Below, piece by piece: positions 45,667 through 63,991 of a DNA stretch of 64,000 bases (position 1 is the stretch's first letter; the number at the start of each line of letters is the position of its first letter). Origin of the DNA: Paenibacillus sanguinis 2301083 = DSM 16941 (GTDB lineage Bacteria; Bacillota; Bacilli; Paenibacillales; Paenibacillaceae); assembly GCF_000374825.1 (NCBI RefSeq), contig NZ_KB895381.1, positions 62,001 through 126,000 on the forward strand, written 5' to 3'. The position numbers and the translations under genes were made by a program. A model generated the notes under the pieces. It saw nothing but the letters and a program-made list of their open reading frames with translations. It had not been told where the DNA came from and ran no database searches.

Positions 45667-45712
45667 AATGATGGTATCATAACCTCATCAAATGATGAAA
45701 TGGGGGGGCAGA

Positions 45713-46681: not shown

Positions 46682-46751
46682 TTATTTCCTTGTTTACGAT
46701 TTCAGATTATGAGAAAAACATCATCATTCATGACGTTTTTCTTTTAATAAA

Positions 46752-46767
46752 TTGGAAACGTTTCCAA
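46752..46767. promoter_or_regulatory. LacI-type operator before the ABC operon
   Basis: A perfect 16-bp palindrome, TTGGAAACGTTTCCAA, 33 bp before the permease gene; this is the canonical CG-centred LacI/GalR operator shape. Confidence 0.72.
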
Positions 46768-46799
46768 CTCTTAATGCGGTATAGAAAGGGGTAGAAAAG

Positions 46800-47744
46800 A
46801 TGAATTCAAGCCGCACTGATCAATCTGTAGTCAAGGTAAAACGTAAAACATGGATCCAAGTAAAAAGAAACTACGAATTGTATCTCTTCCTGCTGCCTAT
46901 CATGATCGTCTATCTTGTATTCAGGTATTACCCGATGTATGGCGTGCAGATCGCCTTCAAGGATTTTTCACCGAGTTTGGGCATCTGGGGCAGTGAATGG
47001 GTAGGCTTCCAACACTTTATCGATTTTTTCAACTCTTATAACTTCTGGGACATTATCAACAACACGCTGATATTAAGCTTTATGTCGCTCATATTCAGCT
47101 TTCCGGCCCCGATCATCATCGCCATTATGCTCAATCAAATGATGGGCAAACGGTACAAGAAATTTATCCAAACGGTTATTTATGCGCCACACTTTATTTC
47201 TACCGTAGTGCTGGTTGGCATGCTTCATGTTTTCTTGTCACCCAATAGCGGAATAGTTAACCATCTCATTGCCTTCTTTGGCGGGGAGCCAATTCTGTTC
47301 ATGGCTGACGAGGGCTGGTTCCGCCCTCTCTACGTTTTGTCCGGAATTTGGCAGGAAACCGGATTCTCCACGATTATCTATCTGGCTGCCCTGGCAGGTG
47401 TTAACCCTGAGCTTCATGAAGCCGCCATTGTGGACGGAGCGAGCAAATGGAAGCGAATATGGTATGTAGATATCCCGAGCATCTTACCTACCATTGTGAT
47501 TTTGCTTATTCTTGCACTTGGGAACATCATGAGTATTGGCTTTGAAAAAGCTTTCTTGATGCAGAGCGATCTAAACTATGCTACCTCCAATATTATCCCG
47601 ACTTATGTGTACGAACAGGGGATTCAAAAAGCACAATATAGCTTTTCTACAGCGGTAGGGCTGTTTAATTCCATCATCAATATCCTTCTGATTGTTACCG
47701 TCAACCGGATTGCCAAAAAACTAACGGAGACCAGCTTGTGGTAG
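46800..47744 (+). CDS. Sugar ABC transporter permease (LplB type), fructan locus
   Basis: A 314-residue CUT1 permease with six membrane helices. The EAA loop is HEAAIVDGASKWKRIW followed by VDIPSILP. FRYYPMYGVQIAFKDFSP is the hallmark of the LplB branch. AAAGGGGTAG precedes the ATG. It is the first gene of the operon and is followed directly by the partner permease, the binding protein, two GH32 genes and GH172. It lacks a cognate ATPase in the window. Confidence 0.93.
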   Translation: MNSSRTDQSVVKVKRKTWIQVKRNYELYLFLLPIMIVYLVFRYYPMYGVQIAFKDFSPSLGIWGSEWVGFQHFIDFFNSYNFWDIINNTLILSFMSLIFSFPAPIIIAIMLNQMMGKRYKKFIQTVIYAPHFISTVVLVGMLHVFLSPNSGIVNHLIAFFGGEPILFMADEGWFRPLYVLSGIWQETGFSTIIYLAALAGVNPELHEAAIVDGASKWKRIWYVDIPSILPTIVILLILALGNIMSIGFEKAFLMQSDLNYATSNIIPTYVYEQGIQKAQYSFSTAVGLFNSIINILLIVTVNRIAKKLTETSLW

Positions 47745-47755
47745 GAGGGATTATC

Positions 47756-48652
47756 TTGAACCGAATATTGAAGAGAAAAAGCAAGGGAGATATCCTGTTT
47801 GACACCGTCAATTATTTGCTGCTAACCATCATCATGCTGCTTGTGTTATTTCCGCTTTATTTTGTATTAGTTGCTTCATTCAGCGACCCCAATCTGATTT
47901 ATGCCGGAGAAGTATGGCTGTATCCCAAGGGGTTTACGCTAGATGGCTATGAACGGATTTTTAATGACTCTTCGATCTGGCTGGGTTATGCCAACTCCAT
48001 TCTCTATGCAGTCGTAGGTACCCTGATCGGCGTTGCGGTTACCCTATTTGCCGCTTATCCGCTAGCTCGCAAGGACTTAATCGGAAGATCGGTCATCATG
48101 TGGTTTTTACTGATCACTATGTTTTTTAGTGGGGGCTTAATTCCTTCTTATTTGCTAATTAAAGATCTGCATATGCTCAATACGATTTGGGCGCTGGTTA
48201 TTCCGGGAGCAGGCGCCATCTTCAATGTCATTATTGTAAGAACCTTTTTTCAGTCTACTCTCCCTGATGAGATGTGGGAGGCAGCCTCAATGGATGGATG
48301 CTCGAACACCCGATTTTTTTGGAGTATGGTGTTGCCTTTGTCCAAATCGATTATTGCAGTGATGGTGCTGTATCATGTCGTTGGCTTCTGGAACGGGTTT
48401 TTCGATGCTTTGATTTATTTAAATGATGAGAGCAAGTATCCGCTTCAATTGGTATTGCGCAATATCCTTGTACAGAATCAAGTCAGTTCCGGCATGATGA
48501 TTGACGTGGAATCCTATGCGGCAAAGATGCGAGTTACTGAATTGATTAAATATGGTGTTATTATCGTCTCTTCACTTCCGTTATTGATTTTATATCCATT
48601 TCTCCAAAAGTACTTTGTTAAAGGCGTCATGATTGGCTCCATTAAGGGATAA
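47756..48652 (+). CDS. Sugar ABC transporter permease (YtcP type), fructan locus
   Basis: A permease of about 299 residues, the partner of 46800. It has six helices, an EAA-like loop WEAASMDGCSNTRFFW, and the C-terminus FVKGVMIGSIKG. The frame opens at a GTG (47738) overlapping the previous stop, but TAGGAGGG at 47743-47750 directs initiation at the TTG at 47756. The 103-bp gap before the binding protein holds a short frame described separately. Confidence 0.92.
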   Translation: MNRILKRKSKGDILFDTVNYLLLTIIMLLVLFPLYFVLVASFSDPNLIYAGEVWLYPKGFTLDGYERIFNDSSIWLGYANSILYAVVGTLIGVAVTLFAAYPLARKDLIGRSVIMWFLLITMFFSGGLIPSYLLIKDLHMLNTIWALVIPGAGAIFNVIIVRTFFQSTLPDEMWEAASMDGCSNTRFFWSMVLPLSKSIIAVMVLYHVVGFWNGFFDALIYLNDESKYPLQLVLRNILVQNQVSSGMMIDVESYAAKMRVTELIKYGVIIVSSLPLLILYPFLQKYFVKGVMIGSIKG

Positions 48653-48678
48653 TGCTAACGTTTGCTTTGAGGGAGGTG

Positions 48679-48759
48679 GTGCATAAATTCAGATTCATGA
48701 AGCAGAACGCGGTGAGGAAATTCAGCTTGCGGAATGATCAAAGGGAGGGGAATATATGA
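48679..48759 (+). CDS. Possible 26-residue upstream ORF coupled to the binding protein
   Basis: A GTG after GAGGGAGG opens a frame beginning MHKFRFMKQNAVRKFS; its TGA overlaps the ATG of the binding protein as ATGA. It is basic with no recognisable family. It could be a chance ORF or a coupling device that boosts translation of the downstream lipoprotein, which also has its own GGGAGGGG. Confidence 0.25.
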   Translation: MHKFRFMKQNAVRKFSLRNDQREGNI

Positions 48760-50372
48760 AGTCGTTATTCACAGGTGCAGGTGTTCTTATGCTGGTTGGT
48801 GCATTGCTGCTTAGCGGATGTACGGGAGATAGCGCAAGCAACCAGGCAAAAAAATCAGAACCGGATGCAAACTTTAACAAAACGGGTCTACCCATTGTAA
48901 ACGAAAAGGTATCTTTAAGAATGGTATCTCCCAAGGCTGCCTTGGCCCCCGTGTATTCTGAAATGGAGATATTTAAACGCCTGGAGCAGCAAACCAATGT
49001 AAATATTGAGTGGGAGAACATTCCGGATACGGATTATGCAGAGAAGAAAAACTTGCTGTTGGCTAGTGGAAATCTACCTGATGCCTTCTATGCTGCGGGA
49101 TTTTCGGATTACGAGCTAATTAATTATGGGCAGGATGGTACAATCATTCCGCTGGAGGAGCTTATTGAAGCGTATGCACCAAATTTGAAAGCGCTTTTTG
49201 AACGCCGGCCTGACATTAAAGCAGCGATCACAACACCTGATGGACATATCTTTGGTCTGCCATCATGGGAGGAAAATAATCTCGGAACGAACCCCTTCTT
49301 TCACGTAATTAATAAAAAATGGCTGGATAACTTGGGATTAAAGATGCCTGAAACCCTCGATGAATATACAGAAGCGCTAGTAGCCTTTAAAACCCAGGAT
49401 CCGAACGGGAACGGCAAAGCTGATGAAATTCCGTTAAGCTTTATGCATATGCAATGGTGCATGGATATTGCCGGGATCTTTGGCGCCTTTGGAATGCCGG
49501 ATAATATGGAGCATCGGATTGTACGTGACGGCAAAGTGATTTTCACCGCTGTGCAGCCAGAGTACAAGGAGGCCTTAACCTATTTTCATGAGAAATGGTA
49601 TAAACAAGGTCTGATCGATCCTGAATCTTTCACCCAGGATGCGGCTCAGTATCTGGCCAAAGGAAAATCACCTGAAGTCACGCTTGGGTCTTATATCTGG
49701 TGGGAAGTAGAAGAGGTTGTTGGCTCAGATAGGGGGAAGGATTATGCCTTGCTGTCCCCGCTTAAGGGTCCAAACGGGCATCAATCCATCGGTCGTGGGA
49801 ATGGTGGAGGACCAGCAAGAGGCGCCTTCGTCATCACCAAAGAAAACCGCCATCCCGAAATTACAATGAGATGGATCGATCAGCAGTATGAGCCGTATCT
49901 GGCTGCGCAAATTCACTGGGGACCGTTAGATATTGTGTTTGAGAAGGATGAAAACGGAAAATTGGTCAATTTGCCATTGCCTGAGGGGACCTCTGCCGGT
50001 GAATTTCGGCAGCAAGTGGCGCCTGGGGCCGGGGGGCCGGGTGTTATAACCATTGAAGATTTGGGGAAGGTCGTAGATTTGGAGCCTCGGGCCCAGCAAC
50101 GCGTGAAAGATTTGGAGAAGTACTACGATCCTTATATGGAAAAAGAGAACTATCCGAGCATCTTCTTTGAGCCGGATGAACTGGATCGAATTAATCGAAT
50201 TGAGCCTGAACTGCTGAAATATGTTAACACTCAAAGAGGCAAATTTATTGTTGACGGTGGTGTGGAGCAGAGCTGGGATAGCTACGTCGCAACGCTCGAG
50301 AAAATGGGTCTGAACGAATTGATGGAAATTTATCAAGCGGGCCTGGACCGCTACAATGCGCAATTTAAGTAA
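48756..50372 (+). CDS. Extracellular solute-binding lipoprotein, fructan locus
   Basis: A 538-residue family 1 binding protein. The signal peptide ends in LLLSGC (Cys near residue 22), so it is a lipoprotein on the outer face of the membrane. The segment DPNGNGKADEIP resembles the calcium-binding loop common in LplA-like binders. It serves permeases 46800 and 47756. GGGAGGGG lies eight bases upstream. Placement before three fructan-type hydrolases suggests that it captures inulin, levan or difructose-anhydride oligomers. Confidence 0.93.
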   Translation: MKSLFTGAGVLMLVGALLLSGCTGDSASNQAKKSEPDANFNKTGLPIVNEKVSLRMVSPKAALAPVYSEMEIFKRLEQQTNVNIEWENIPDTDYAEKKNLLLASGNLPDAFYAAGFSDYELINYGQDGTIIPLEELIEAYAPNLKALFERRPDIKAAITTPDGHIFGLPSWEENNLGTNPFFHVINKKWLDNLGLKMPETLDEYTEALVAFKTQDPNGNGKADEIPLSFMHMQWCMDIAGIFGAFGMPDNMEHRIVRDGKVIFTAVQPEYKEALTYFHEKWYKQGLIDPESFTQDAAQYLAKGKSPEVTLGSYIWWEVEEVVGSDRGKDYALLSPLKGPNGHQSIGRGNGGGPARGAFVITKENRHPEITMRWIDQQYEPYLAAQIHWGPLDIVFEKDENGKLVNLPLPEGTSAGEFRQQVAPGAGGPGVITIEDLGKVVDLEPRAQQRVKDLEKYYDPYMEKENYPSIFFEPDELDRINRIEPELLKYVNTQRGKFIVDGGVEQSWDSYVATLEKMGLNELMEIYQAGLDRYNAQFK

Positions 50373-50412
50373 ATATCAGACTATGGCGATACGAAAGGAT
50401 GCTCTTTAACTT

Positions 50413-51966
50413 ATGCTTACGACAGATAAAAATAATCAAATGGCTGAATCCAATAAGCGGCAGGATGAAGATAAATTCAGACCAGGGTTTCACTTTTCAC
50501 CTCCATCTCATTGGATGAATGACCCGAACGGGTTAGTGTTTTACGAGGGTGAATACCATCTGTTTTATCAGTATCATCCCTTTAGCAATCAATGGGGACC
50601 AATGCATTGGGGACATGCGACCAGTCCGGACTTGATCCATTGGGAGCATCGGCCGATCGCTTTGTTCCCGGATGAACACGGGGCTATTTTCTCCGGGTGT
50701 TGTGTGGTGGATTGGAATAACAGCAGCGGACTGTTTGAAGGTTCGCATGGCCTGGTTGCCATCTTCACCCATGCGGACACCTGCCCCAAGACAGGGCAAT
50801 CTCGCCAGCGGCAGAGCTTGGCTTACAGCAGCGACAAAGGCCGAACCTGGCACAAATATGAGGGGAACCCGGTTCTCGTCGACGAGTCCCTGATCGACTT
50901 TCGGGATCCGAAGGTGTTCTGGCATTCGCCAAGCGAGCGGTGGGTGATGGTGATTGTAGCGGGAGACCATGCCCGTTTTTATGGATCGACCAATTTAATT
51001 GAATGGACACAGACCGGTGAATTCGGCAAAGGGGAGGGCTCGCATGACGGTGTGTGGGAATGCCCGGATCTCTTTGCATTGCCTGTGGGTGACAGCGGAC
51101 GCTCCAAATGGGTGCTGATCATCAGCATTGGGGATAATCCGTCCGTTCCGGAAGGGTCGCGCACGCAGTATTTTATCGGCGAGTTCGACGGAAATACATT
51201 CATCAATGACCATCCGGCTGAGCGGATTCTGTGGCTGGATGATGGCCGAGACAACTATGCGGGCGTGACCTGGTCGGATATGCCTGAGCAAGACGGCCGC
51301 CGTGTGCTGATCGGATGGATGAGCAATTGGAAATATGCGAATGAGACGCCGACCGGAGCCTGGAGAGGCGCAATGACATTGCCTCGGGCCTTGTCGTTGA
51401 CGAGCCGTGACGAGGACATCGTGCTGACGCAAATGCCGGTTCGGGAGGTCGAACAACTGCGTGAAGCCTCGGTGAGCCGGGAGCATGTCACCGTGATGCC
51501 GGAGGAGCCGTTCACGCTGCAGACGAACGGGGAACTCCTGGAAATTGAAGCAGACATCGATCTCCGGTACGGGAATGGAGTTCTCATTAAATTGAAATCC
51601 TCCGGGGAGAGCGAAACGAGGATTGGTTACGACGCTGAGCGCGAGAGGATATTCATTGACCGCTCAAGCTCGGGCTTGACCGATTTCCATCCGTTGTTCG
51701 CCTGCGAGCATGGGGCGAGGCTGGCACCGGACCATGGACAAATCAAGCTCCATATCTGGCTGGATCGCAATTCGGTTGAGGTATATGCGAATGAAGGGCT
51801 CGTTGCGCTAACGGATCAACTTTTCCCTGATGCTCCGCTCGAAAGTGTTGGGATAAGCACCCATTCGGGGCGGGTTGTATTGAACTCATTTCATATGCAT
51901 TCGCTTAAATCCGTTCCATTTCCTAATGGTGCCGCCGAGCAGTCTTCAAGGGGGAGTGACGTGTGA
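50413..51966 (+). CDS. GH32 fructan beta-fructosidase / sucrose-type hydrolase
   Basis: A 517-residue GH32 enzyme with no signal peptide. The five-bladed propeller carries the nucleophile Asp37 in HWMNDPNG, the transition-state Asp165 in FRDP and the acid/base Glu216 in WECPDLF. A C-terminal beta-sandwich follows (about 370-500). It should release fructose from sucrose, inulin or levan oligosaccharides in the cytosol. It overlaps the next gene by four bases and is part of the LacI-controlled operon. The 5' spacing from AAAGGA to the ATG is long (about 14 bases). Confidence 0.94.
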   Translation: MLTTDKNNQMAESNKRQDEDKFRPGFHFSPPSHWMNDPNGLVFYEGEYHLFYQYHPFSNQWGPMHWGHATSPDLIHWEHRPIALFPDEHGAIFSGCCVVDWNNSSGLFEGSHGLVAIFTHADTCPKTGQSRQRQSLAYSSDKGRTWHKYEGNPVLVDESLIDFRDPKVFWHSPSERWVMVIVAGDHARFYGSTNLIEWTQTGEFGKGEGSHDGVWECPDLFALPVGDSGRSKWVLIISIGDNPSVPEGSRTQYFIGEFDGNTFINDHPAERILWLDDGRDNYAGVTWSDMPEQDGRRVLIGWMSNWKYANETPTGAWRGAMTLPRALSLTSRDEDIVLTQMPVREVEQLREASVSREHVTVMPEEPFTLQTNGELLEIEADIDLRYGNGVLIKLKSSGESETRIGYDAERERIFIDRSSSGLTDFHPLFACEHGARLAPDHGQIKLHIWLDRNSVEVYANEGLVALTDQLFPDAPLESVGISTHSGRVVLNSFHMHSLKSVPFPNGAAEQSSRGSDV

Positions 51967-54257
51967 GTCCATTAACCGCCAAGCGGGGGCCAGTAATGTA
52001 TTGGGCTTTCGACGAAGGAAGAGGGGACAGCGCTCTGGAGAGTTTGTCCCAAGCTCGGGATGATATTCAATACGTATTTAAGCATGCGGAGTTTGCCGAG
52101 CCACGCGATCCGCAATGGAGACAGGGCGTATTGGGCAGCGGGCTCCTGTTCGACGGGTACTCGACTTATGTTGCCCATTCGTTAAATGAGGATAATTCAG
52201 ATGGCGAGTCAGCATTCCTCACAGAGCTAAGTATTGGAGTATGGGTAGCGCCCCGTTCGTATGAATGGGGGGAAGGCGGCAAGCTGGCCGCGATCGTAAA
52301 CCGCTACAACCGGGAGAGCAAGCAGGGATATCTGCTTGGCATGTTCCGTCACGGCGCTTGGTCGTTTCAACTCGGGCTGGAAGGCGGCGAATGGAAAGAG
52401 CTTTGGTCCCCTGACGGCTATGAGCTGCCCAAAAATGAATGGTCATACGTAAGTGCGGTGTTCGATGGATACCGGGGCGAAATGAAGCTGTATTTGAATG
52501 GCCGCGAAATCGCTTCGTCTCCCGTGCCGCGCGGTTCCCGTCTGGCCGAGGCGTCGGGCACGGAGCTGCTTATCGGCAAAAACAACCATGGCAGCCAGTT
52601 GGTGAGAGCATTCAGCCTGCACATGTTTAGCGGAATGATCGATGAGCTTAAGCTCTATCATCGGGTTCTAAGCGCGGAGGAAGTAGCCGCCTCTTATCAG
52701 GAAGTACTGGATACGGCCCACGGAGGTGTCCATCCTTCCTTACAGTATAATGAGATCAAGCTTGACCGGACACCGCTGCTCTCGGATCGGCATCGGCCGC
52801 AATACCATGTCAGCCCGCCAGCCCACTGGATGAATGAACCTCATGCGCCAATTTATTTTGAAGGGAAATATCATCTATTCTATCAGCATAACCCGCTAGG
52901 GCCCTTCTTTTATCATATCCACTGGGGACATTGGGTAAGCGAAGATCTGGTGCATTGGCGCGACCTTCCCGTGGCGCTCGCGCCGGAGAAGGATGAGCTT
53001 GCGCCGGACGGAATCTGGTCGGGAAGCGCGACTTATGATGCCGATGGCCTGCCTGTCTTGTTCTTTACGGCGGGAAATGACAGCGCTTCGCCAAACCAAA
53101 GCGTGGCGCTTGCCCGCAGCACTTATACTCAAGATGGAGATTCGGATCTGGTGCATTGGGTGAAGCATCCGGAGCCTTTGATCGTGCAGAAGCAGGGCAT
53201 GGGCGCCTTCGGCGATTTCCGGGATCCCTTTGTTTGGCAGGACGATGACGGCTGGTATGCCCTGGTCGGATCTGGAATCGAAGGCGAAGGCGGGGCCGCC
53301 TTGGCGTTTGCCTCAAAGGATATGCTGAATTGGACGTACAAAGGGCCGTTTTATCAAGCGGATCTGCAGAGGTTTCCTTATCTTGGGCCTATATGGGAGC
53401 TTCCCGTGCTGCTTCCGCTTGGCCCCAACAAGCAAGGAGGGAGCAAGCACCTTCTGCTGGTCAGCCCGGTGGGGAAGGGGGCGGATGTCGAGGTGTTTTA
53501 TTGGATCGGCCAGCTTGACAAGCAAAATCTAACCTTTGTTCCCGATCAGGAGGAGCCGCAATTGATCGATGTCGGTGATTTCCACTTTACCGGCCCAAGC
53601 GGAATGGTAGATCCGAAAACCGGCAGAAAGATCATCTTTACGATCGCCCAAGGCGACCGGACGCCCGAGCTGGAATACCAGTCGGGTTGGGCCCATAACG
53701 GCGGCTTGCCGCTAAGCGTGTATTTAAGGGATGACGGACGATTAGGAATCGAACCCATTGAGGAATTGCAATCGCTGCGCGGGAAGAAACGGCTATCTCT
53801 TCAGAATAAGTCACTCGCTGAGGCGAATGAACGGCTCCGGGAGATTCAAGGCGACATGCTTGAGATTCAATTGGAAATTGAGCCGGACGGTGCCCGGCAA
53901 TTCGGAATCAAGCTCCGGTGTACCCCGGATGGGATGGAAGAAACACGGTTGTATTATGATGCCAATCAATCGATGCTCCGGGTTGACCGGACAAAAACGA
54001 CGTTACATCCGAAGGAAAAATGCGGAGGGATTCAGGGCGGTAAGCTGGAGCTGCCGTGTGAGAATCTGAAGCTGCACATTTATTTGGACCGTTCCATGGT
54101 CGAAGCTTATGCCAACGGATTGAAAAGCCTGACGACCCGGGTGTATCCAAGCCGTAAGGATGCTATGGGGCTTGAAATTTGTGGTGACGGCAAGCTGACT
54201 GTCACCTCGCTGGAAATATGGGATATGAAGCCGATCTGGCAAGAAGGGAGATTCTGA
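51963..54257 (+). CDS. LamG-GH32 fusion, variant catalytic motif
   Basis: A 764-residue two-domain protein. Residues about 10-245 are a LamG/concanavalin-like jelly roll, probably carbohydrate binding. Residues about 275-760 are a GH32 propeller plus sandwich. The usual WMNDPNG is replaced by WMNEPHAP, so the nucleophile position is Glu292; FRDP (Asp421) is intact, and the EC motif is IWELP with Glu479 retained and Cys lost. A Glu for Asp at the nucleophile marks a distinct GH32 clade whose product specificity may differ. No signal peptide, so the LamG domain works in the cytosol. Start GTG 51963 overlaps the previous stop. Confidence 0.9.
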   Translation: MSPLTAKRGPVMYWAFDEGRGDSALESLSQARDDIQYVFKHAEFAEPRDPQWRQGVLGSGLLFDGYSTYVAHSLNEDNSDGESAFLTELSIGVWVAPRSYEWGEGGKLAAIVNRYNRESKQGYLLGMFRHGAWSFQLGLEGGEWKELWSPDGYELPKNEWSYVSAVFDGYRGEMKLYLNGREIASSPVPRGSRLAEASGTELLIGKNNHGSQLVRAFSLHMFSGMIDELKLYHRVLSAEEVAASYQEVLDTAHGGVHPSLQYNEIKLDRTPLLSDRHRPQYHVSPPAHWMNEPHAPIYFEGKYHLFYQHNPLGPFFYHIHWGHWVSEDLVHWRDLPVALAPEKDELAPDGIWSGSATYDADGLPVLFFTAGNDSASPNQSVALARSTYTQDGDSDLVHWVKHPEPLIVQKQGMGAFGDFRDPFVWQDDDGWYALVGSGIEGEGGAALAFASKDMLNWTYKGPFYQADLQRFPYLGPIWELPVLLPLGPNKQGGSKHLLLVSPVGKGADVEVFYWIGQLDKQNLTFVPDQEEPQLIDVGDFHFTGPSGMVDPKTGRKIIFTIAQGDRTPELEYQSGWAHNGGLPLSVYLRDDGRLGIEPIEELQSLRGKKRLSLQNKSLAEANERLREIQGDMLEIQLEIEPDGARQFGIKLRCTPDGMEETRLYYDANQSMLRVDRTKTTLHPKEKCGGIQGGKLELPCENLKLHIYLDRSMVEAYANGLKSLTTRVYPSRKDAMGLEICGDGKLTVTSLEIWDMKPIWQEGRF

Positions 54258-54258
54258 C

Positions 54259-55923
54259 ATGAATTCAACGCAACCACAATCTTATTCCTATCAAGACCTC
54301 GTGAAGAGATTATACGACCTCGAGGCGCTGGCAGTGCCACCGCAGCTCGGCGAGAAAGCGGGCTGCTTCTCCAGTTTTGACCGAAGCTCTAGTTATAATG
54401 CCGAGACAGGCCTGTACGAGAACTGGGGAGCCAATGATGATGGGGGAGGCTTTATTCGCAAGGAAGGGGACAGCATCATTGCTATGGAGCTGGACGGACC
54501 CGGTGTGATCTGGAGAGTCTGGTCCGCGCTTCCCGAAGAGGGCCATATCCGGATTTTTATAGATCACTCGGATACCCCTGTAATCGATCAGCCTTTTCGC
54601 GATTATTTTGAAAAATTTAATCAAGAAGGGCCACCGGCCAATTTTCCGAATCTGTCGCCTACGTTATCCCGAGGCAGAAACTGCTTTATTCCCATTCCCT
54701 TTCAACAGCATTGCAAGGTGCTGCTGGATAAAGGTTGGGGGGCTTATTATCACATCACATACACTGTCTTTCCTGCCGGGTCCATTTTGCCATCCTTTGA
54801 CGGCAGCTTCGACAAGGAGTCGGCCATTGCGCTGGCGGAAGCAGACCGGGTATTACAGCGAAGGGGAACCTATTCTTTGATGAAGGAGGAAGGATTATCT
54901 GACGAAACCGTTACGGTAACGGTACCGGCAGGCGATAAAGCGGTGCTTCTTGATAAACAAGGGGCCGGCGCGATCTCCATGATCCGAATCAGGACGGACC
55001 TGGGACGTAAAAGCGAGGAACAGCAGCGGGTGTTGGCCAGACAATTAACTCTGTCGATGAAATGGGACCATGAAACAGACCCTTCAGTATGGGCCCCATT
55101 GGGTGATTTTTTTGGCAGCGCGCCCGGGATCAAGCCGTACCGCTCTCTGCCCCTTGGGATGAATGAGCATGAAATGTACAGTAATTGGTACATGCCGTTC
55201 TCGGAAGGCGCGAGGATCGAGATTGAAAATGAAGGGACGGAAGCATGCGAGATTACGGCGGAGATCCGGTTTACATCTCTACCTAAGTCTCATGCGGAAA
55301 ACCTTCTGCGTTTTCATGCCAAATGGCACCGGGATGAGTACCTGGATCTGGATGTGAAGCGATACGAGGAAGAAGGGGATCGTTGGCCGGATTGGCCTTT
55401 GCTGCTGGCGAAAGGCCGGGGAAGATTCTGCGGCGTCCACCTGCATGTAAACAATACCTGGGAGAAGCCGGCCGAGGAGGCCGAAACCTGGTGGTACGGG
55501 AAATGGGACCGAAAAACGATCGACTGGTGGTGGGGAGAAGGGGACGAAAAATTTTTTGTGGATGGCGAGTCCTTTCCATCCACGTTCGGAACGGGCAGCG
55601 AGGATTATATCGGTTATGCCTGGGCGGCCGAACCGCCGTTCCCGATGTTCGACAGTGCTTACGCCAATCAGCCGTTTATAGAACCAGATGCGAACGGACA
55701 TACCTCGGTCAGCCGCTTCCACATTGGCGACAATATTCCATTCATGAGCTCTTTTGAAGGCTTTATGGAGAAATATAAAGGGAATCACTGGGGGCCGGGC
55801 AACTGCTGTTTATATGCCGCTACCGTTTACTGGTATCAGGAGCGAGGAACGAGTGATGCGTATAAGCCGGTTGCGTTAAATGAACGCTTGAACCACTTGA
55901 AGCTTGGGGATGAAGGAAACTGA
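54259..55923 (+). CDS. GH172 (DUF2961) difructose-anhydride / furanosidase family enzyme
   Basis: A 554-residue DUF2961 protein, now glycoside hydrolase family 172, whose characterised members act on alpha-D-fructofuranosides (difructose dianhydride I synthase/hydrolase) or on arabinofuranosides. The double jelly-roll markers are SSFDRSSSYN near the N-terminus and the acidic run GEGDEKFFVDGE followed by STFGTGSEDYIGYAW, which should contain the catalytic Glu pair. No signal peptide. GAAGGGAG precedes the ATG one base after the previous stop. Next to two GH32 genes, cleavage of difructose anhydride or alpha-linked fructose is the most economical reading. Confidence 0.9.
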   Translation: MNSTQPQSYSYQDLVKRLYDLEALAVPPQLGEKAGCFSSFDRSSSYNAETGLYENWGANDDGGGFIRKEGDSIIAMELDGPGVIWRVWSALPEEGHIRIFIDHSDTPVIDQPFRDYFEKFNQEGPPANFPNLSPTLSRGRNCFIPIPFQQHCKVLLDKGWGAYYHITYTVFPAGSILPSFDGSFDKESAIALAEADRVLQRRGTYSLMKEEGLSDETVTVTVPAGDKAVLLDKQGAGAISMIRIRTDLGRKSEEQQRVLARQLTLSMKWDHETDPSVWAPLGDFFGSAPGIKPYRSLPLGMNEHEMYSNWYMPFSEGARIEIENEGTEACEITAEIRFTSLPKSHAENLLRFHAKWHRDEYLDLDVKRYEEEGDRWPDWPLLLAKGRGRFCGVHLHVNNTWEKPAEEAETWWYGKWDRKTIDWWWGEGDEKFFVDGESFPSTFGTGSEDYIGYAWAAEPPFPMFDSAYANQPFIEPDANGHTSVSRFHIGDNIPFMSSFEGFMEKYKGNHWGPGNCCLYAATVYWYQERGTSDAYKPVALNERLNHLKLGDEGN

Positions 55924-55978
55924 GGGGCAGCACCCATTCCTCAATTTATACAAAGGTCTTCCATTTGCTCTTGCGAAA

Positions 55979-56000
55979 CCGGCACCCGTTCAGGTGCCGG
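55979..56000. terminator. Hairpin between convergent GH172 and LacI genes
   Basis: CCGGCACC/GGTGCCGG with a six-base loop containing the LacI stop codon. It lacks a clear T-tract, so it is a weak terminator in either direction. Confidence 0.5.
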
Positions 56001-57072
56001 TATCGTCGTATGATTTGGCCCTTCCGCCAGGCAGTTTTTTTTCAGTTGATTCCCGAAAAATGATCTGTGTGCGAATATAAGATATCTCATAAGGGAGTTT
56101 GGGGTTTTGAATCCGTGCCAATAGCTTTTGGGCGGCTAATAACCCTATTTCGGTACAAGGAATATGTACTGTAGTAAGTGGAGGGTCTATGATACTTGCT
56201 TCTGGAGCATTATCGAATCCGCAAACCATAACATTTCCTGGAATTTCAATATTCATTTTCTTTAAAGTAGTAATTAGTTGAACAGCAAGATAATCGTTGG
56301 CACATACAAAGGCTTCAGGTAACTGAGATAAATCTTTTATTTTATTGGCAAGCCATTCGTTTTCCCAGTAGAGCGCATCATTGTCAATAATACAAATGGA
56401 TTCATCGACTGGCAGCCCGGATGAAGCCAACGCATGACAAAATCCTTCCCATCGTTCGTAAAAACTAAGACAGTGATAGCGATCTCCTACAAATCCAATC
56501 CTGCTTACTCCTCTTTTGATCATACCTTGAACCATTTTGCTAATGCTATATCGGTTTTCCATCATCAAGATGTCCGCCGAAAGATCATGATGGGATTCTT
56601 CATAGAAAGTGTCAGTAAACAAAACGGGCTTCCCTAGTGAACAAAGCATTTTGCTATATTCAGAGTCAAATAATTCAACGCAAATGATCGCGTCGATTTT
56701 TTGGGGATCAAGTGTAGGTGGAAGTGCCAACGAACGAATGTCATTGTCTTGTAAAATGTGAATCATTAGTGAATACCCATGTTGACTGAGTTCCTTCTCG
56801 AAAGTGGTAAGCAGCATGGAAGCAAAGTGAACTTTGTTCGGCATCAGGCGGGTAATCATGGCAATATTTTTATTAGGAGTTACAGATTTATGTGCTGTAT
56901 CTGAATCAAGTAAGGCAAACTTTTTGTATTTCATCTCTTTAGCAGCTTTTAAAATGACATTGCGGGTTTTGTCAGGAACTTTGCCTGTCCCATTCAGCGC
57001 TTTGGAAACAGTGTTACGGGAAAGACCAAGCGAATCGGCAATGTCTTGAACAGTAACCTTCTTTTTATTTAT
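55990..57072 (-). CDS. LacI-family regulator with ATA (non-canonical) start
   Basis: About 360 residues. Reading back past the first ATG (56934) the frame stays open and encodes a complete LacI DNA-binding domain, VTVQDIADSLGLSRNTVSKA followed by LNGTGKVPDKTR. Between the preceding in-frame stop and this domain there is no ATG, GTG, TTG or CTG. AAGGAG (57087-57082) sits nine bases before ATA at 57072-57070, where MNKKKVTV would be expected; ATT at 57078 is the only alternative and is too close. Either AUA/AUU initiation keeps the repressor scarce, or a point mutation has crippled it, leaving a product from 56934 without its DNA-binding domain. It is divergent from the ABC operon at 57507. Confidence 0.82.
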   Translation of the reverse strand: MNKKKVTVQDIADSLGLSRNTVSKALNGTGKVPDKTRNVILKAAKEMKYKKFALLDSDTAHKSVTPNKNIAMITRLMPNKVHFASMLLTTFEKELSQHGYSLMIHILQDNDIRSLALPPTLDPQKIDAIICVELFDSEYSKMLCSLGKPVLFTDTFYEESHHDLSADILMMENRYSISKMVQGMIKRGVSRIGFVGDRYHCLSFYERWEGFCHALASSGLPVDESICIIDNDALYWENEWLANKIKDLSQLPEAFVCANDYLAVQLITTLKKMNIEIPGNVMVCGFDNAPEASIIDPPLTTVHIPCTEIGLLAAQKLLARIQNPKLPYEISYIRTQIIFRESTEKKLPGGRAKSYDDTGT

Positions 57073-57108
57073 TTTAATTCTCTCCTTAAGATGAAGTTAG
57101 ATTAACAC

Positions 57109-57134
57109 GTAAACCTAATGTTTTGTTTACAATT
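57109..57134. promoter_or_regulatory. Candidate LacI operator near the regulator
   Basis: An interrupted palindrome GTAAAC-N10-GTTTAC. Its right side extends to GTTTACAATT (57125-57134), which recurs inverted at 57374-57383 beside the operon promoter. Confidence 0.5.
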
Positions 57135-57348
57135 GTATTTTAGCATATAGAAAAGTAAAAACAACTGAAGCAATAGATGTCAAGAATGGAGATAAAAAGT
57201 GTGCATAATTTTTGAACTATGCATAAAATGTAAATGTATATTTTTTCATTCTTAATGATAACTATTGATTATGAAAACAAAAATTGCTATATCAAGTGAT
57301 TTTTACATTTTTATTAAAGGTATTTTAACAAAAAAGCAAAAAAATATG

Positions 57349-57377
57349 TTGACATGATAATGGGTGTTTGTTAAATT
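57349..57377 (+). promoter_or_regulatory. Sigma-A-type promoter of the ABC/GH32 operon
   Basis: TTGACA and TAAATT are separated by 17 bp. The -10 box overlaps AATTGTAAAC (57374-57383), the inverted copy of the element near the divergent LacI gene, as expected for repression. The rest of 57135-57348 is AT-rich and shows no coding signal. Confidence 0.65.
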
Positions 57378-57408
57378 GTAAACTAAACAAATGAATAAAA
57401 TGTAAAAT

Positions 57409-57422
57409 TGTAATCGCTTTCT
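57409..57422. promoter_or_regulatory. Candidate CcpA cre site
   Basis: TGTAATCGCTTTCT matches TGWAANCGNTNWCA except for the last base. It lies about 30 bp downstream of the -10 box, a position suited to roadblock repression by CcpA. Confidence 0.6.
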
Positions 57423-57506
57423 GTGGGGTGAAAGGAGGCTCGGATGAATCGGACATATTGAGGAACAAGATGGATACGGAACCCGTTAGCACTAATAATT
57501 CAAGGG

Positions 57507-58436
57507 GTGAAAAAGCTGATAGCTGTGCGAGATAAAAATTGGTTTGTGCGCTTTGGATTATATGTTAGGTTGAATTGGCAGCTTTATCTTATTTTTATGA
57601 TGCCGGCTTTCATACTGCTTGTTGTTTTTAAATATCTCCCGATGGGCGGTATTTTGATAGCATTTCAAGATTATAGCGGAATTAGAGGACTGCTTGGAAG
57701 CGAGTGGGTCGGGCTGGATAACTTCAGCCGCTTTCTTTCCTCAACTGAATTTTGGCGTTTGTTTGGGAACACCTTGCAACTCAGCGTTTATAATTTACTG
57801 TGGAGTTTCTTTCCTCCGATAATCCTGGCCCTCTTGCTTGCCAGAATCAGAAGTAGGGGTATTCGCTCGAAGATTCAGTTATTCATTTATGCGCCCAACT
57901 TTATTTCGATAATTGTTCTGGCTGGTATGGTGTTCGTGTTCCTGTCTCCTGTTGGTCCGATTAATCAGTTTTTCGGTACGCAAATCAACTTTATGGCCGA
58001 ACCTTCGGCGTACCGTACGATTTACATTGCAAGCGGTATATGGCAGTCAGCTGGATGGGCATCTATCATTTATACCGCCGCATTGTCTGGAGTCAGTCAG
58101 GATTTAGTCGAAGCCGCCAAAATTGATGGTGCAAGTTTATGGAAACGTATTCAACATATCGAATTGCCTACTTTGAAACCTATTATGATTATTCAGTTTA
58201 TTCTTTCGGCAGGACATATCATGAGCATTGGCTTCGAGAAGTCATTAGCGCTGCAAACGGATTTAAATTTGGCAACCAGTCAGATTATCCCGACCTATGT
58301 GTATCAAATCGGTATTAATATGGGTGACTACGGATACTCTACGGCTGTTGATCTGTTTAATTCGGTCATCAATATTATTCTGCTGTTGTCTGTCAATAAG
58401 ATTGTTTCAAAACTGAATAATAATGAAGGGTTATAA
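57507..58436 (+). CDS. Sugar ABC transporter permease (LplB type)
   Basis: A 309-residue CUT1 permease with six helices. The EAA loop is VEAAKIDGASLWKRIQ followed by IELPTLKP, and FKYLPMGGILIAFQDYSG is the branch signature. It opens at GTG 57507, directly after AAGGGG, so spacing is poor; another GTG at 57525 has no better site, and the exact start is uncertain. It is the first gene of a four-gene operon with the partner permease, binding protein and a GH32 enzyme. Confidence 0.92.
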   Translation: MKKLIAVRDKNWFVRFGLYVRLNWQLYLIFMMPAFILLVVFKYLPMGGILIAFQDYSGIRGLLGSEWVGLDNFSRFLSSTEFWRLFGNTLQLSVYNLLWSFFPPIILALLLARIRSRGIRSKIQLFIYAPNFISIIVLAGMVFVFLSPVGPINQFFGTQINFMAEPSAYRTIYIASGIWQSAGWASIIYTAALSGVSQDLVEAAKIDGASLWKRIQHIELPTLKPIMIIQFILSAGHIMSIGFEKSLALQTDLNLATSQIIPTYVYQIGINMGDYGYSTAVDLFNSVINIILLLSVNKIVSKLNNNEGL

Positions 58437-58450
58437 AAGGGGGTGTGTCG

Positions 58451-59365
58451 ATGAAAGCAGCGGTTGCAGACGGCAATAACACAGATAAATATTTAAGCTT
58501 GAATGAAAAAATATTTCTATATTTCGGCTTTCTCTTACTTGGGCTATTTGTGACGTTAATTGTTGGACCACTTCTATATGTATTGATTGCCTCATTTATG
58601 GATCCGGTTACCTTGGCGAACAGGGGGATTACCTTTGATATTTCCAAGTGGAACCTGCTTGGTTATAAGCGAGTACTGGGCGATGAAATGATGTGGCGTG
58701 GTTTTGTCAACTCGATTGCTTATTCCATCGGGTTCACCGTCGTATCTGTAACAGTTACTCTATTAGCGGCTTATCCACTTTCACGCAAAGATTTTATGGG
58801 TAGGAAATTCTTTAACACGTTGTTTGTGATTACCATGTTTTTTGGCGGGGGTCTGATGCCGACCTACTTGCTGATCGAAAAAATGAACTTGATCAACTCT
58901 CCCTTGGCTGTAATTTTGCCAAACGCAATTAATGTCTGGCACATCATTCTTGCCCGTGTTTATTACCAGGGACTTCCAAACGAACTGCGAGATGCAGCGC
59001 AAATGGACGGTTCTTCCGATCTTCATTACTTTATTCGTATTATGATGCCGATTTGTAAACCGATTATTGCAGTACTTGTTTTGTATCAATTTGTTTGGCA
59101 ATGGAACAGCTATTTTGAAGCAATGCTTTATCTTGAAGATCAAAATCTCCAGCCGTTACAACTGATTATTCGCTCTATCCTAGTCCAGAATACGATTCAA
59201 TCCGGAATGATGACAGACGCAGAGAGTGTTGCGGATGCTGCTAAGCTTGGCGAACTCCTTAAATATTCTACCATTGTAATCTCCAGCTTACCGTTACTGG
59301 TTATGTATCCTTTCTTCACGAAGTACTTTGACAAAGGGATCATGGTTGGTTCAATCAAAGGGTAA
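58451..59365 (+). CDS. Sugar ABC transporter permease (YtcP type)
   Basis: A 304-residue partner permease. It has six helices, the EAA-like loop RDAAQMDGSSDLHYFI, and the conserved C-terminus YFDKGIMVGSIKG. A GTG two codons upstream (58445) is possible, but AAAAGGGGG fits ATG 58451. It follows the previous stop by 14 bp. Confidence 0.93.
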   Translation: MKAAVADGNNTDKYLSLNEKIFLYFGFLLLGLFVTLIVGPLLYVLIASFMDPVTLANRGITFDISKWNLLGYKRVLGDEMMWRGFVNSIAYSIGFTVVSVTVTLLAAYPLSRKDFMGRKFFNTLFVITMFFGGGLMPTYLLIEKMNLINSPLAVILPNAINVWHIILARVYYQGLPNELRDAAQMDGSSDLHYFIRIMMPICKPIIAVLVLYQFVWQWNSYFEAMLYLEDQNLQPLQLIIRSILVQNTIQSGMMTDAESVADAAKLGELLKYSTIVISSLPLLVMYPFFTKYFDKGIMVGSIKG

Positions 59366-59393
59366 TAAAAGAGAATGCTTAAGGAGGTAAAAT

Positions 59394-61037
59394 ATGAAAA
59401 AACGATCATTACCTAAACTTGCTATTCTTGCGATGGCCGGAATTCTATCCATCGGAGTTCTGTCTGCATGCAATAACAACAAGAATATAACCAACTCCGC
59501 TTTACAAGATGCTTCTGACATCAAATTTCCGTTGGAAAACACAGAAACTATCCGTATTCTTACTCATGCATCAGCAGATTCTCCGAAGGATTTCAATGAA
59601 AAGAGACTGGTTCAGCGCCTTGAGGAAGAAACAAATGTCCGTGTGAAGTGGACAGTGTACCCCGATGAGCAGTGGGGGGAGAAAATGAGACTAGCGCTTT
59701 CCAAATCCAATCTGCCTGACGTTGTCACCAATATGTATATTGGGCAGTATGATGTGCTCAATTACGCCAAACAGGGAGTTTTCATTCCGTTAGAGGAATT
59801 GATCGAGAAATATATGCCCAATCTCACTAAAATTTTGGAACAAAGACCTGAGGTGAGAGCGGCGATTACTGCATCTGACGGACATATCTATACACTTCCT
59901 TTTATAGAAGAGACGGCTCGTGACAAAGAAGCTCATAATGTAATCGGCGCGATTCCTTGGATCAATAAGAAATGGTTGGATGAATTGAATCTTCCTATGC
60001 CTGCGACAACGGATGAATTGGAAGCGGTTTTGAAAGCGTTTAAAGAGAAAAATCCTGAAGGTCGCCAGGACGTCATACCGATGTCATTTCGGCTTAATCA
60101 GGTCAATGAAGACCCGGGTATTTTGCTGGGATCATTTGGATCTGGGGAAAATATGGATCATTATATGGTAACTAATGATAAGAAAGTCATATATACGCTC
60201 GCCCAGGAAGATTTTAAAGAAGGGGTAAACTGGCTGCATAAGTTATATGCCGAAGGATTGATTGATCCGGAGGCGTTTACCCAGTCTGACGGTACTTATA
60301 TTTCCAAAGGACAGGGGGGGCGTTATGGCCTGTTCTTCATGTGGGATAAAGCTGCGATGGTACCAAATCCGCAAGACTATGTTCCCTTGCCGCCTCTCCA
60401 GGGACCGGATGGAACCGTGAATGTGCCCAGACAAAACTACTATTCATTTGACATGGGAGTTACCGCCATTACCAGTACGAATTCTAACCCTGCCCTTACT
60501 GCGGTATGGTTAGATAAAATGTTTGAGCCGCTTCAGTCGATCCAGAATGTTTTTGGAACTTATGACGATCCTAACAATTTCAATATTTTAAAGAAAAAAG
60601 ATGATGGCACTTTTGAATTTCAGCCGATCCCTGAGGGCAAGTCTTATTACTCATTAAGTGCTAAACAAAACATCCGCGGCTCATTTGCAGTTTTGGCTGA
60701 TTATTATGGCAAGTATGTGAATATGCAGAGCAATACAGCAGAGCGCGTTGAAATGATCCGTACGATATATGCGCCTCACATCAAGAGCGACTACTATTAT
60801 CCATCGGTATATTTAAATGCAGAGGATATTACTCGTGTCAGCCAAATTGAGACGGATTTAAGACCTTATGCCGAGAGCAAGAAAGCGGAGTGGATTATGA
60901 AAGGCGGGGTGGATACGGACTGGGAGTCATATCTGAAAAAATTGGATGATATGGGTTTGCCGGAATTACTTCGATTAAAGCAACAGGGCTTTGATGCCTT
61001 CCAGGCGGAGCTGGATTCAAGCAGTTCCTCTCAATAA
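59394..61037 (+). CDS. Extracellular solute-binding lipoprotein
   Basis: A 547-residue family 1 binding protein with the basic start MKKRSLPK, a hydrophobic stretch and the lipobox GVLSAC (Cys near residue 26). Asn-rich sequence follows the Cys. It is clearly homologous to the 48756 binding protein (both share EERPEVRAAI/RRPDIKAAI-like and IDPEAFTQ/IDPESFTQ segments), so the two transporters are related and may take related fructans. AAGGAGG lies eight bases before the ATG. Confidence 0.93.
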   Translation: MKKRSLPKLAILAMAGILSIGVLSACNNNKNITNSALQDASDIKFPLENTETIRILTHASADSPKDFNEKRLVQRLEEETNVRVKWTVYPDEQWGEKMRLALSKSNLPDVVTNMYIGQYDVLNYAKQGVFIPLEELIEKYMPNLTKILEQRPEVRAAITASDGHIYTLPFIEETARDKEAHNVIGAIPWINKKWLDELNLPMPATTDELEAVLKAFKEKNPEGRQDVIPMSFRLNQVNEDPGILLGSFGSGENMDHYMVTNDKKVIYTLAQEDFKEGVNWLHKLYAEGLIDPEAFTQSDGTYISKGQGGRYGLFFMWDKAAMVPNPQDYVPLPPLQGPDGTVNVPRQNYYSFDMGVTAITSTNSNPALTAVWLDKMFEPLQSIQNVFGTYDDPNNFNILKKKDDGTFEFQPIPEGKSYYSLSAKQNIRGSFAVLADYYGKYVNMQSNTAERVEMIRTIYAPHIKSDYYYPSVYLNAEDITRVSQIETDLRPYAESKKAEWIMKGGVDTDWESYLKKLDDMGLPELLRLKQQGFDAFQAELDSSSSSQ

Positions 61038-61073
61038 CAACATCAATCAATCCAAAAAGGGAGAGATGAATAT

Positions 61074-62498
61074 ATGAAATTATTTTATACGGCGGAAAAT
61101 GCCAAGATCGGTGATGTCATCCCCTATTATAACGAGGAAGAAAAGAAATTTGATTTATTTTATCTCAAAAATTGGAACGCTGATTACAAAGGATCGGATA
61201 TTGTCTATGGCTGGCATCGGTTAACTACAGCTGACTTGCTTGAATTTAAGGAACAGCCAAGCGGTATACATGGCGGGACGGGATCGATCATAAAGGTGGA
61301 TGGCGTTTATCATATGTTTTACTGTACGTTTGAGGACAATCCGCAAAGACAATACGTACGGCATGCGGTAAGTAGTGATTATGAACAATGGACAGATATA
61401 CCGGAACATCAGTTTACAGCCGATGGTGAGATTTATGCTTTAACCGATTGGCGTGATCCATACGTTTTTTGGAATGAGGAGGAAAATAAGTGGTGGATGC
61501 TGCTATCTGCGCGAGAGAATGCCCCAACCGAACGGAATGGATGTGTGGGTCTTTGTGTATCTGAAGATCTTATACATTGGGATTATCGGAAGCCTTTGTA
61601 TGCCCCTGCCATCCATCAATCGGCTCATGAATGTCCGGATCTCTTTAAAATAGGAGACTGGTATTATCTTGTATATTCTAATTATACCGACGGTTTTTGC
61701 ACCTACTATCGGATGAGCCGTTCGCTTAATGGTCCGTGGCTGCGACCGGAGGTTGATACCTTTGATGGCCGTGCATTCTATGCGGCTAAGACAGGAACGG
61801 ATGGGGAAAATCGTTATATCTTCGGATGGAATCCTACGCGCCGCGAGAATGGTTGGAAAATCGATCCGCCAACCGATCTTGGGTCCGATTATCGAACATG
61901 GGATTGGGGCGGTGCGATGGTTGTACACAAAATCTTGCAAAACCCGGATGGGACTCTTGGCGTAACGGTACCGGATACGGTCGCATCGGTCGTTCAGAAT
62001 CCGCAGTCTGTTGAATTAAAGCCTTTACGGGGAGAGTGGAATGTAGTAGGAAATACCGCTTCAGTCATTTCTGAAGGCGGATACGCGAGCTTATTGGGCA
62101 GTAAGCTTCCTGAGCTGTGCTGCCTGGAGGCGACGATCCGGTATACCGGGAAACCCACCCGTTTCGGGATTGCATTACAGGTAGATGAGAAGTTTGCTGA
62201 AGGGTATTATCTTTGTTTTGAGCCATGGTTTAACCGGCTGGAGTTTCGTTCCGGCCTGCGGATGTACGAGGCGGGAGGAATGATGTTTCCTTATGCTGTG
62301 GAGATGGAACGCCCCATCGCGCTTATGCCGGATACACCGTATCAAATAAAGATATTCATTGAAGAATCCGTGATGGTTATGTATATAAACGACCAAACCG
62401 CTTTTAGCTCACGCTTGTATAACTACAAAGGGCGTCAATTTGGATTGTTTGTTTCAGACGGAGCAGCAGAGTTTAGTTCGATACGTCTGTTGGGTTAG
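61074..62498 (+). CDS. GH32-type glycoside hydrolase, divergent clade
   Basis: A 474-residue five-bladed-propeller enzyme. The usual WMNDPNG block is replaced by KIGDVIPYY, whose Asp13 takes the nucleophile position; WRDPYVFW supplies the transition-state Asp and HECPDLF the acid/base Glu. The C-terminal sandwich (about 330-474) is short. No signal peptide. GGGAGAG precedes the ATG. It closes the operon with the 57507-61037 transporter. This subgroup is distinct from classical invertases, and the specific fructoside, perhaps a disaccharide or anhydride, is not readable. Confidence 0.88.
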   Translation: MKLFYTAENAKIGDVIPYYNEEEKKFDLFYLKNWNADYKGSDIVYGWHRLTTADLLEFKEQPSGIHGGTGSIIKVDGVYHMFYCTFEDNPQRQYVRHAVSSDYEQWTDIPEHQFTADGEIYALTDWRDPYVFWNEEENKWWMLLSARENAPTERNGCVGLCVSEDLIHWDYRKPLYAPAIHQSAHECPDLFKIGDWYYLVYSNYTDGFCTYYRMSRSLNGPWLRPEVDTFDGRAFYAAKTGTDGENRYIFGWNPTRRENGWKIDPPTDLGSDYRTWDWGGAMVVHKILQNPDGTLGVTVPDTVASVVQNPQSVELKPLRGEWNVVGNTASVISEGGYASLLGSKLPELCCLEATIRYTGKPTRFGIALQVDEKFAEGYYLCFEPWFNRLEFRSGLRMYEAGGMMFPYAVEMERPIALMPDTPYQIKIFIEESVMVMYINDQTAFSSRLYNYKGRQFGLFVSDGAAEFSSIRLLG

Positions 62499-62992: not shown

Positions 62993-63991
62993 TCAACTGG
63001 TGCGTCGCACCATCAGTTCTGTCGAGAAGACCTCTTCGGCAAGTGCAATTGGCTCCGTGTCTGACTCAATTGCCTGAATCATCAGCTTGGAAGCCGCTTC
63101 AGCTAATTCATTGATAGGATGTCGAATCGTCGATAGGCTCAATAGCTCGGAGATTGTTGGCATATCATCGACACCCAGAATGGCAAGTTCTTCTGGCACT
63201 GCCAGATCCAAATCCTTGCAGGCCTTTAAGGCTCCGATGGCAGTGATATCGTTCAGGCAAAATAGGGCCCGTGGCAGCTGATTGTTCTTGGCCAGATTAA
63301 TAACAGTGTTATATCCGAAAGCTTCTGTCATATCACCGGTCATCACCGTCGTCAACTTCCCATGCTCCTGCAGCGCATCGCTAGCTCCGTTCAGACGATC
63401 GTCGAAGCCAGGAACATGGCCATGCGGATAAGTGAGAATGATCAAGTGCTCATAACCACGGGACAACAAATGTTCAACCCCGAGTTGACCACTTTGGTAG
63501 TCGTTGACACGCAGGACATGAGCGCCATAAGCAAGATTATGACGTCCTATAGTAATGACCGGAACATGAAAATCCATTAATTTGGGCATAAATTTCTCAG
63601 TATCCATCGTTGCTTTGACAATAATGCCATCGACCATTTGAATATTCATGAAGATCTCTTCGAAATCCAGCAAGATAATTTTATAGCCCAGTGTTTTTAG
63701 CTGTTGCTTGATGACTTTGGCAAAATGCAGAAAATATAAATCCTCAAAATAACCTTCTCCATCGTAGATGCTGTCCGACAGGATAAGCCCGATGGTGTGC
63801 ATTCTACCAGTAATCAAGCTTTTGGCTACCGGGTTTACTTGATAATTTAGTTTCTTGATCGAGAGTCTGATCTTTTCTTTAGTTTCCGAGCCCATCTTTT
63901 GGAAGTTTCCATTCAAAAAGTGAGAAACTGTCGTAGGAGATACACCTGCATCTTTTGCCACTTGCACTAAAGTAACCCTTTTTTTTGCCAT
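62993..63991 (-). CDS. LacI-family transcriptional regulator
   Basis: A 332-residue LacI/GalR repressor. The DNA-binding domain reads VTLVQVAKDAGVSPTTVSHF followed by LNGNF; the hinge region is near residue 55, and the effector domain follows with VDGIIVKAT and the late LAILGVDDMP. The start ATG lies nine bases from the window end, so the promoter and ribosome binding site are not visible. It reads toward the GH32 operon end and is isolated by terminators on that side; its target is probably outside the window. Confidence 0.92.
   Translation of the reverse strand: MAKKRVTLVQVAKDAGVSPTTVSHFLNGNFQKMGSETKEKIRLSIKKLNYQVNPVAKSLITGRMHTIGLILSDSIYDGEGYFEDLYFLHFAKVIKQQLKTLGYKIILLDFEEIFMNIQMVDGIIVKATMDTEKFMPKLMDFHVPVITIGRHNLAYGAHVLRVNDYQSGQLGVEHLLSRGYEHLIILTYPHGHVPGFDDRLNGASDALQEHGKLTTVMTGDMTEAFGYNTVINLAKNNQLPRALFCLNDITAIGALKACKDLDLAVPEELAILGVDDMPTISELLSLSTIRHPINELAEAASKLMIQAIESDTEPIALAEEVFSTELMVRRTS

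Follow-up and report, generated by a model that had tools for sequence, protein, structure and literature searches.

Genes and regulatory features at the locus

The DNA analysed here, called the window, is a stretch of 64,000 nucleotides from Paenibacillus sanguinis. A gene of the LacI repressor family lies on its minus strand and is read uninterrupted from 57072 to 55993, without an internal stop, up to the terminator codon at 55992-55990. The N-terminal LacI-type helix-turn-helix was recognised by PF00356 with 39.3 bits against a cut-off of 27, and the C-terminal periplasmic-binding-protein-like effector domain (residues 183-343) by PF13377 with 104.4 bits against a cut-off of 26.5. The features of the gene and of its divergent neighbours are collected in Table 1.

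Table 1. Features of the repressor locus (coordinates of the window).
Feature	Position	Strand	Remark
LacI-family repressor gene	55990..57072	(-)	360 codons and stop; PF00356 and PF13377 above cut-off
LacI helix-turn-helix, residues 7-50	56923..57054	(-)	Pfam match
314-aa ORF from the first in-frame ATG, lacking the helix-turn-helix	55990..56934	(-)	no spaced Shine-Dalgarno
ATA at the start-codon position	57070..57072	(-)	9 nt downstream of AAGGAG; aligned with NTG in 109/109 other distinct homologues examined
Shine-Dalgarno AAGGAG	57082..57087	(-)	read directly; pairing -8.2 kcal/mol, rank 94 of 110
AT-rich intergenic region between the divergent transcription units	57073..57506	.	GC 0.276
Operator-like TTTACAATTGTATT	57126..57139	.	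overlaps promoter-like -10 of the repressor gene; putative function
Operator-like AATTGTAAAC, same motif inverted	57374..57383	.	overlaps promoter-like -10 of the ABC operon; putative function
Divergent operon: permease, second permease-like ORF, solute-binding protein, GH32-type hydrolase	57507..62498	(+)	presumed target

At 1e-5, Pfam gave no match for the second permease-like ORF of the divergent operon. The first permease has a homologue within the fetched flank at 124 of the 134 homologous loci (the window and duplicates counted), so the pairing of repressor and permease is old. The loci without such a homologue include L099, L104 and L176.

The motif TTTACAATT occurs twice in the intergenic region, in opposite orientation, with no other copy within the 64 kb. 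The count alone is weak, since two or more copies were reached in 24 of 100 shuffles of the whole window. When the 450 bases upstream were resampled, two copies appeared in only 3 of 2000 cases. The 9-mer was also found upstream of 79 of the 110 distinct genes of the homologue set, against a resampled mean of 4.5, a comparison that overstates independence because the homologues are related. It is absent upstream of several divergent homologues, for example L002, L168 and L099. Promoter-like sites showed a modest excess in the AT-rich stretch (10 against 5.7 expected, sd 2.4). Regulation of the divergent operon and autoregulation of the repressor are therefore inferred.

Two adjacent ABC-transporter/GH32 gene runs extend from 45692 to 62498, with three LacI genes inside or alongside. 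The upstream run adds a DUF2961 protein and a GH32 enzyme that carries a LamG-like domain, and the whole region looks like a fructan-use island. The other two LacI genes lie at 45692-46681 and 62993-63991, and the pairwise identity among all three is just 22-25%. The GC content, 0.535 in 50413-55923, drops sharply to 0.40 across the repressor gene and further to 0.28 between the divergent units, a step that may mean that the two gene runs differ in origin. The ORFs at 41415 and 43922 share a length of 532 aa and were for that reason considered as duplicates, but proved on comparison not to be.

The codon at the start position

The minus strand reads TAA CTT CAT CTT AAG GAG AGA ATT AAA ATA AAT AAA AAG AAG GTT ACT GTT CAA GAC ATT GCC across the beginning of the gene. 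Only eight codons separate the in-frame TAA from the ATA, and no ATG, GTG or TTG occurs in frame between this stop and the helix-turn-helix. The spacer between AAGGAG and the ATA covers 57081-57073. An in-frame ATT at 57078-57076 follows AAGGAG after just 3 nt. The first in-frame ATG, at 56934, encodes residue 47 of 360, inside the helix-turn-helix match, so its product would lack the DNA-binding domain. Since the sequence AAAGAG directly abuts it, this ATG is without a properly spaced ribosome-binding site. Further upstream, an ATG at 57146 opens a short frame that, read by eye, closes ahead of the Shine-Dalgarno sequence and is out of the frame of the gene. The predicted structure of the start region was not unusual (z +1.34 and +0.84).

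The start position was compared in 134 loci including that of the window. After 24 duplicates had been dropped, 110 distinct genes were left, 109 of them besides the window gene. The loci are a selection, namely the best matches returned by protein searches (in one search the best 80 of 291), and six distant paralogues from the same genome (L003-L008) were left out of the 109 and used for the within-genome count. The codon aligned with ATA was ATG in 103 of the 109 homologues, TTG in five and GTG in one; neither ATA nor any other non-NTG codon was found there. Within the genome, 23 of the 24 LacI-type helix-turn-helix matches have an ATG, GTG or TTG at most 7 codons upstream, the window gene being the sole exception. 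Both counts indicate that ATA fills the start column by more than chance.

The first-pass annotation had described an intact LacI helix-turn-helix frame without an ATG, GTG or TTG start, and had placed ATA nine bases past AAGGAG, exactly where the start is expected. The open frame, the Pfam matches and the uniform NTG column of the homologues bear out both statements, and its prediction that a protein begun at the first ATG would lack the DNA-binding domain also holds. Its choice between ATA and ATT as the start narrows to ATA, the aligned start position in the homologues.

Pairing energies were calculated with anti-Shine-Dalgarno letters not taken from the 16S rRNA of this genome. With -8.2 kcal/mol, the window gene pairs as weakly as the TTG genes (median -8.3), whereas the median of the ATG genes is -11.7 and the infC gene of the same genome reaches -14.0. 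In this comparison of 110 genes, the ATA was not found to be compensated by a stronger Shine-Dalgarno sequence. The five TTG starters (L002, a paralogue in the same genome, and L031, L039, L044 and L131) form one clade, and all five have AAGGAG 9 nt before the TTG, a geometry identical to that of the window gene. Shine-Dalgarno pairing is weak in this clade, whose members may typically be translated weakly.

Probable initiation at AUA and its alternatives

The protein encoded behind the ATA is intact. Near-invariant columns were defined as those at least 97% uniform among the other genes in the alignment (n=100, position 1 excluded). Of these, 87 are retained in the window protein, among them 21 of the 22 in the first 52 residues. 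The substitutions at the other 13 are, as judged by reading, conservative in roughly two thirds of cases. The two Diplocloster copies are the sole genes in which fewer columns are retained. Identity to eight homologues was 0.55-0.63, 0.71-0.77 and 0.28-0.41 at codon positions 1, 2 and 3, respectively, a purifying-selection pattern as would be expected for a selected protein. Internal stops, near-invariant columns and codon-position identities gave no sign of decay beyond the start codon.

A close orthologue, with more than about 50% identity, was not matched in 40 genomes of the genus and 394 of the family, nor in samples of 392 genomes of the order and 398 of the class. Each species is represented by a single genome in these sets, which overlap. 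Of two scans of genome contigs, the first returned no relative and the second none above about 50% identity among the best 80 of 291. Because of this and of the long branch of the window gene, the evidence for selection covers the greater part of the branch but does not extend to its final stretch.

The ATG-started homologues L099 and L104 of Diplocloster (Lachnospiraceae) group with the window gene, possibly after a transfer from one class to another, a reading that a long branch may distort. Their sister placement carried a long-branch warning and is not relied on; nor is the tree without them, in which the window gene falls outside all 39 near homologues. The related clades carry ATG or TTG, and the ancestral codon was likely ATG, although this is not proven.

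As a start codon, AUA performs badly in E. coli and better in those Bacillota that have been tested (PMC13009471, PMC9680021). According to the text of PMC13009471, the natural AUA starts of citZ and of the repressor gene ccpN gave reporters in Staphylococcus aureus about 10% of the AUG activity in the poor medium RPMI, and that of ccpN up to 30% in the rich medium BHI; infC is likewise read from AUA there, and the infC, cvfC1 and ccpN sites have extended Shine-Dalgarno motifs. For sets of non-AUG codons including AUA, PMC9680021 gives 5-20% of AUG in Clostridium butyricum, 7-17% in C. sporogenes and 0.1-0.3% in E. coli behind one leader, and 45-85%, 40-100% and 0.04-3%, respectively, behind another. 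Among 61,358 ancestral AUG starts in 36 groups of close genomes, 363 had become GUG, 113 UUG, 2 CUG and 1 AUU, and AUA is not mentioned in the text of that survey (PMC5622118).

A non-NTG start is also very probable in the infC gene of this genome (L083:1469-1500, contig 11). It reads GGAGGTGGAGA ATT ATC AGT AAG, with ATT ATC behind GGAGG at the homologous start, and the IF3 chain 5me0_Y (PDB) begins at the serine encoded by the AGT that follows. Less likely in-frame starts are an ATG 33 codons and a GTG 23 codons before the Pfam match, both upstream of GGAGG, and a further ATG one codon ahead of the match. For ccpN as a second AUA control, none was recognised among 11 of the 29 HTH_11 matches in the genome, picked mostly by length and read by eye.

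We consider it most probable, at roughly 60%, that the gene encodes a working LacI repressor with a derived AUA start that is used weakly. The codon would have arisen most simply by a single G-to-A change from ATG. Behind AAGGAG, the initiator tRNA would read AUA with perhaps 5-30% of the rate for AUG, less repressor would be made, and the divergent ABC/GH32 operon would be less tightly held. Some repressor is still to be expected from the window gene, because AUA reporters retain activity in Bacillota and because of the probable non-NTG start of infC in the same genome. With none of the 109 homologues carrying a non-NTG start, AUA is not a conserved device; since it is unshared and the pairing is on the weaker side, it is probably no old, tuned one either and looks like a recent step down from ATG or TTG.

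The single lesion in an otherwise intact gene also fits a very recent loss. An ATA would then have replaced ATG (or TTG) within this strain or species and initiation would have dropped to almost none, leaving the repressor effectively absent and the operon constitutive, with no time yet for decay of the rest. The lack of ATA in the homologues examined and of Shine-Dalgarno compensation agrees with such a loss, and the nearby LacI genes might soften its effect. We regard it as a strong rival but the less likely one, since the rest of the gene is without decay and AUA keeps about 10% of the AUG activity or more in Bacillota reporters, which makes a full null unlikely (PMC13009471, PMC9680021). 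The first-pass annotation had set rare initiation against derepression by an ATG-to-ATA change. An ancestral ATG is likely, as the latter assumed, full derepression is the less likely outcome, and the two alternatives are not exclusive. Of the outcome that it had named as refuting, ATG in relatives with a pseudogenised allele only here, just a part was observed: the relatives have ATG, TTG or GTG, but the allele bears no other pseudogene sign.

The AUA could instead be a selected throttle as proposed for ccpN, with initiation sensitive to IF3 and nutrients setting the level of the sugar repressor. The leakiness of the operon would then track the translation state, and the TTG homologues with their equally weak pairing would represent a milder form. 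We find this reading, the milder form included, unlikely.

An error in the sequence or assembly, with ATG or another NTG as the true codon of an ordinary gene, is very unlikely. The genome is a draft in 36 contigs and a change of one base would bring the gene into line with every homologue examined, but the site lies inside a contig of 259,833 bases, far from its ends, the surrounding long ORFs are intact and the window contains no N. Consensus errors from short reads are rare per base.

A start elsewhere, at the ATT, which is in frame and a known rare start, or at ATG 56934, from which the 314-aa frame is open and would give an effector-binding protein with a role other than repressor, is hardly to be expected, as the ATT lies only 3 nt from AAGGAG and the homologues begin two codons downstream of it, while the ATG lacks a spaced Shine-Dalgarno sequence and would discard a helix-turn-helix that has kept 21 of 22 near-invariant columns.

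A gene caller restricted to ATG, GTG and TTG would list at this locus a 314-aa protein without a DNA-binding domain. If the AUA is used weakly, as we favour, the gene brings a LacI-family case into the small group of bacterial repressors known to start with AUA, and it offers a simple test of whether the dosage of a repressor can be set by a rare start codon in Bacillota. Should the AUA be unused, the gene would be a clean, naturally occurring allele in which a single base derepresses a glycan-uptake operon.

Comparison with known AUA-started genes

AUA-started repressors are already known, for example ccpN (PMC13009471); among the papers listed in a search of open-access literature, no LacI-family gene with an AUA start was found. 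Like functional AUA genes, the window gene has no in-frame NTG before its conserved domain and has AUA at the homologous start. It has neither the strong or extended Shine-Dalgarno sequence of the S. aureus AUA cases nor the conservation of the start in relatives that is seen for infC and ccpN, features that are not strictly defining.

Among Bacillota, the ccpN gene of S. aureus and B. subtilis is comparable in that it encodes a helix-turn-helix repressor acting in carbon metabolism and has its AUA downstream of a Shine-Dalgarno sequence. In contrast to the window gene, where no homologue examined shares the AUA and the pairing is weak, its non-canonical start is described as conserved between the two species, with extended Shine-Dalgarno pairing (PMC13009471), and its protein family is other than LacI. 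The infC gene, which encodes IF3 and starts with AUA, AUU or AUC, has an AUN start in common with the window gene. In E. coli this start serves the autoregulation of IF3 (cited within PMC13009471), and the infC of the present genome, unlike the window gene, pairs strongly through GGAGG. The AUA start of citZ in the NCTC 8325 lineage of S. aureus was described for one lineage and is only partly active, as proposed for the window gene; citZ differs in encoding a metabolic enzyme and in having its activity shown by a reporter (PMC13009471). The 109 homologues, LacI repressors encoded next to an ABC sugar permease in Paenibacillaceae and other Bacillota, have about 45-50% identity. They share the start column and the neighbour with the window gene and differ from it in the start codon, which is ATG, TTG or GTG.
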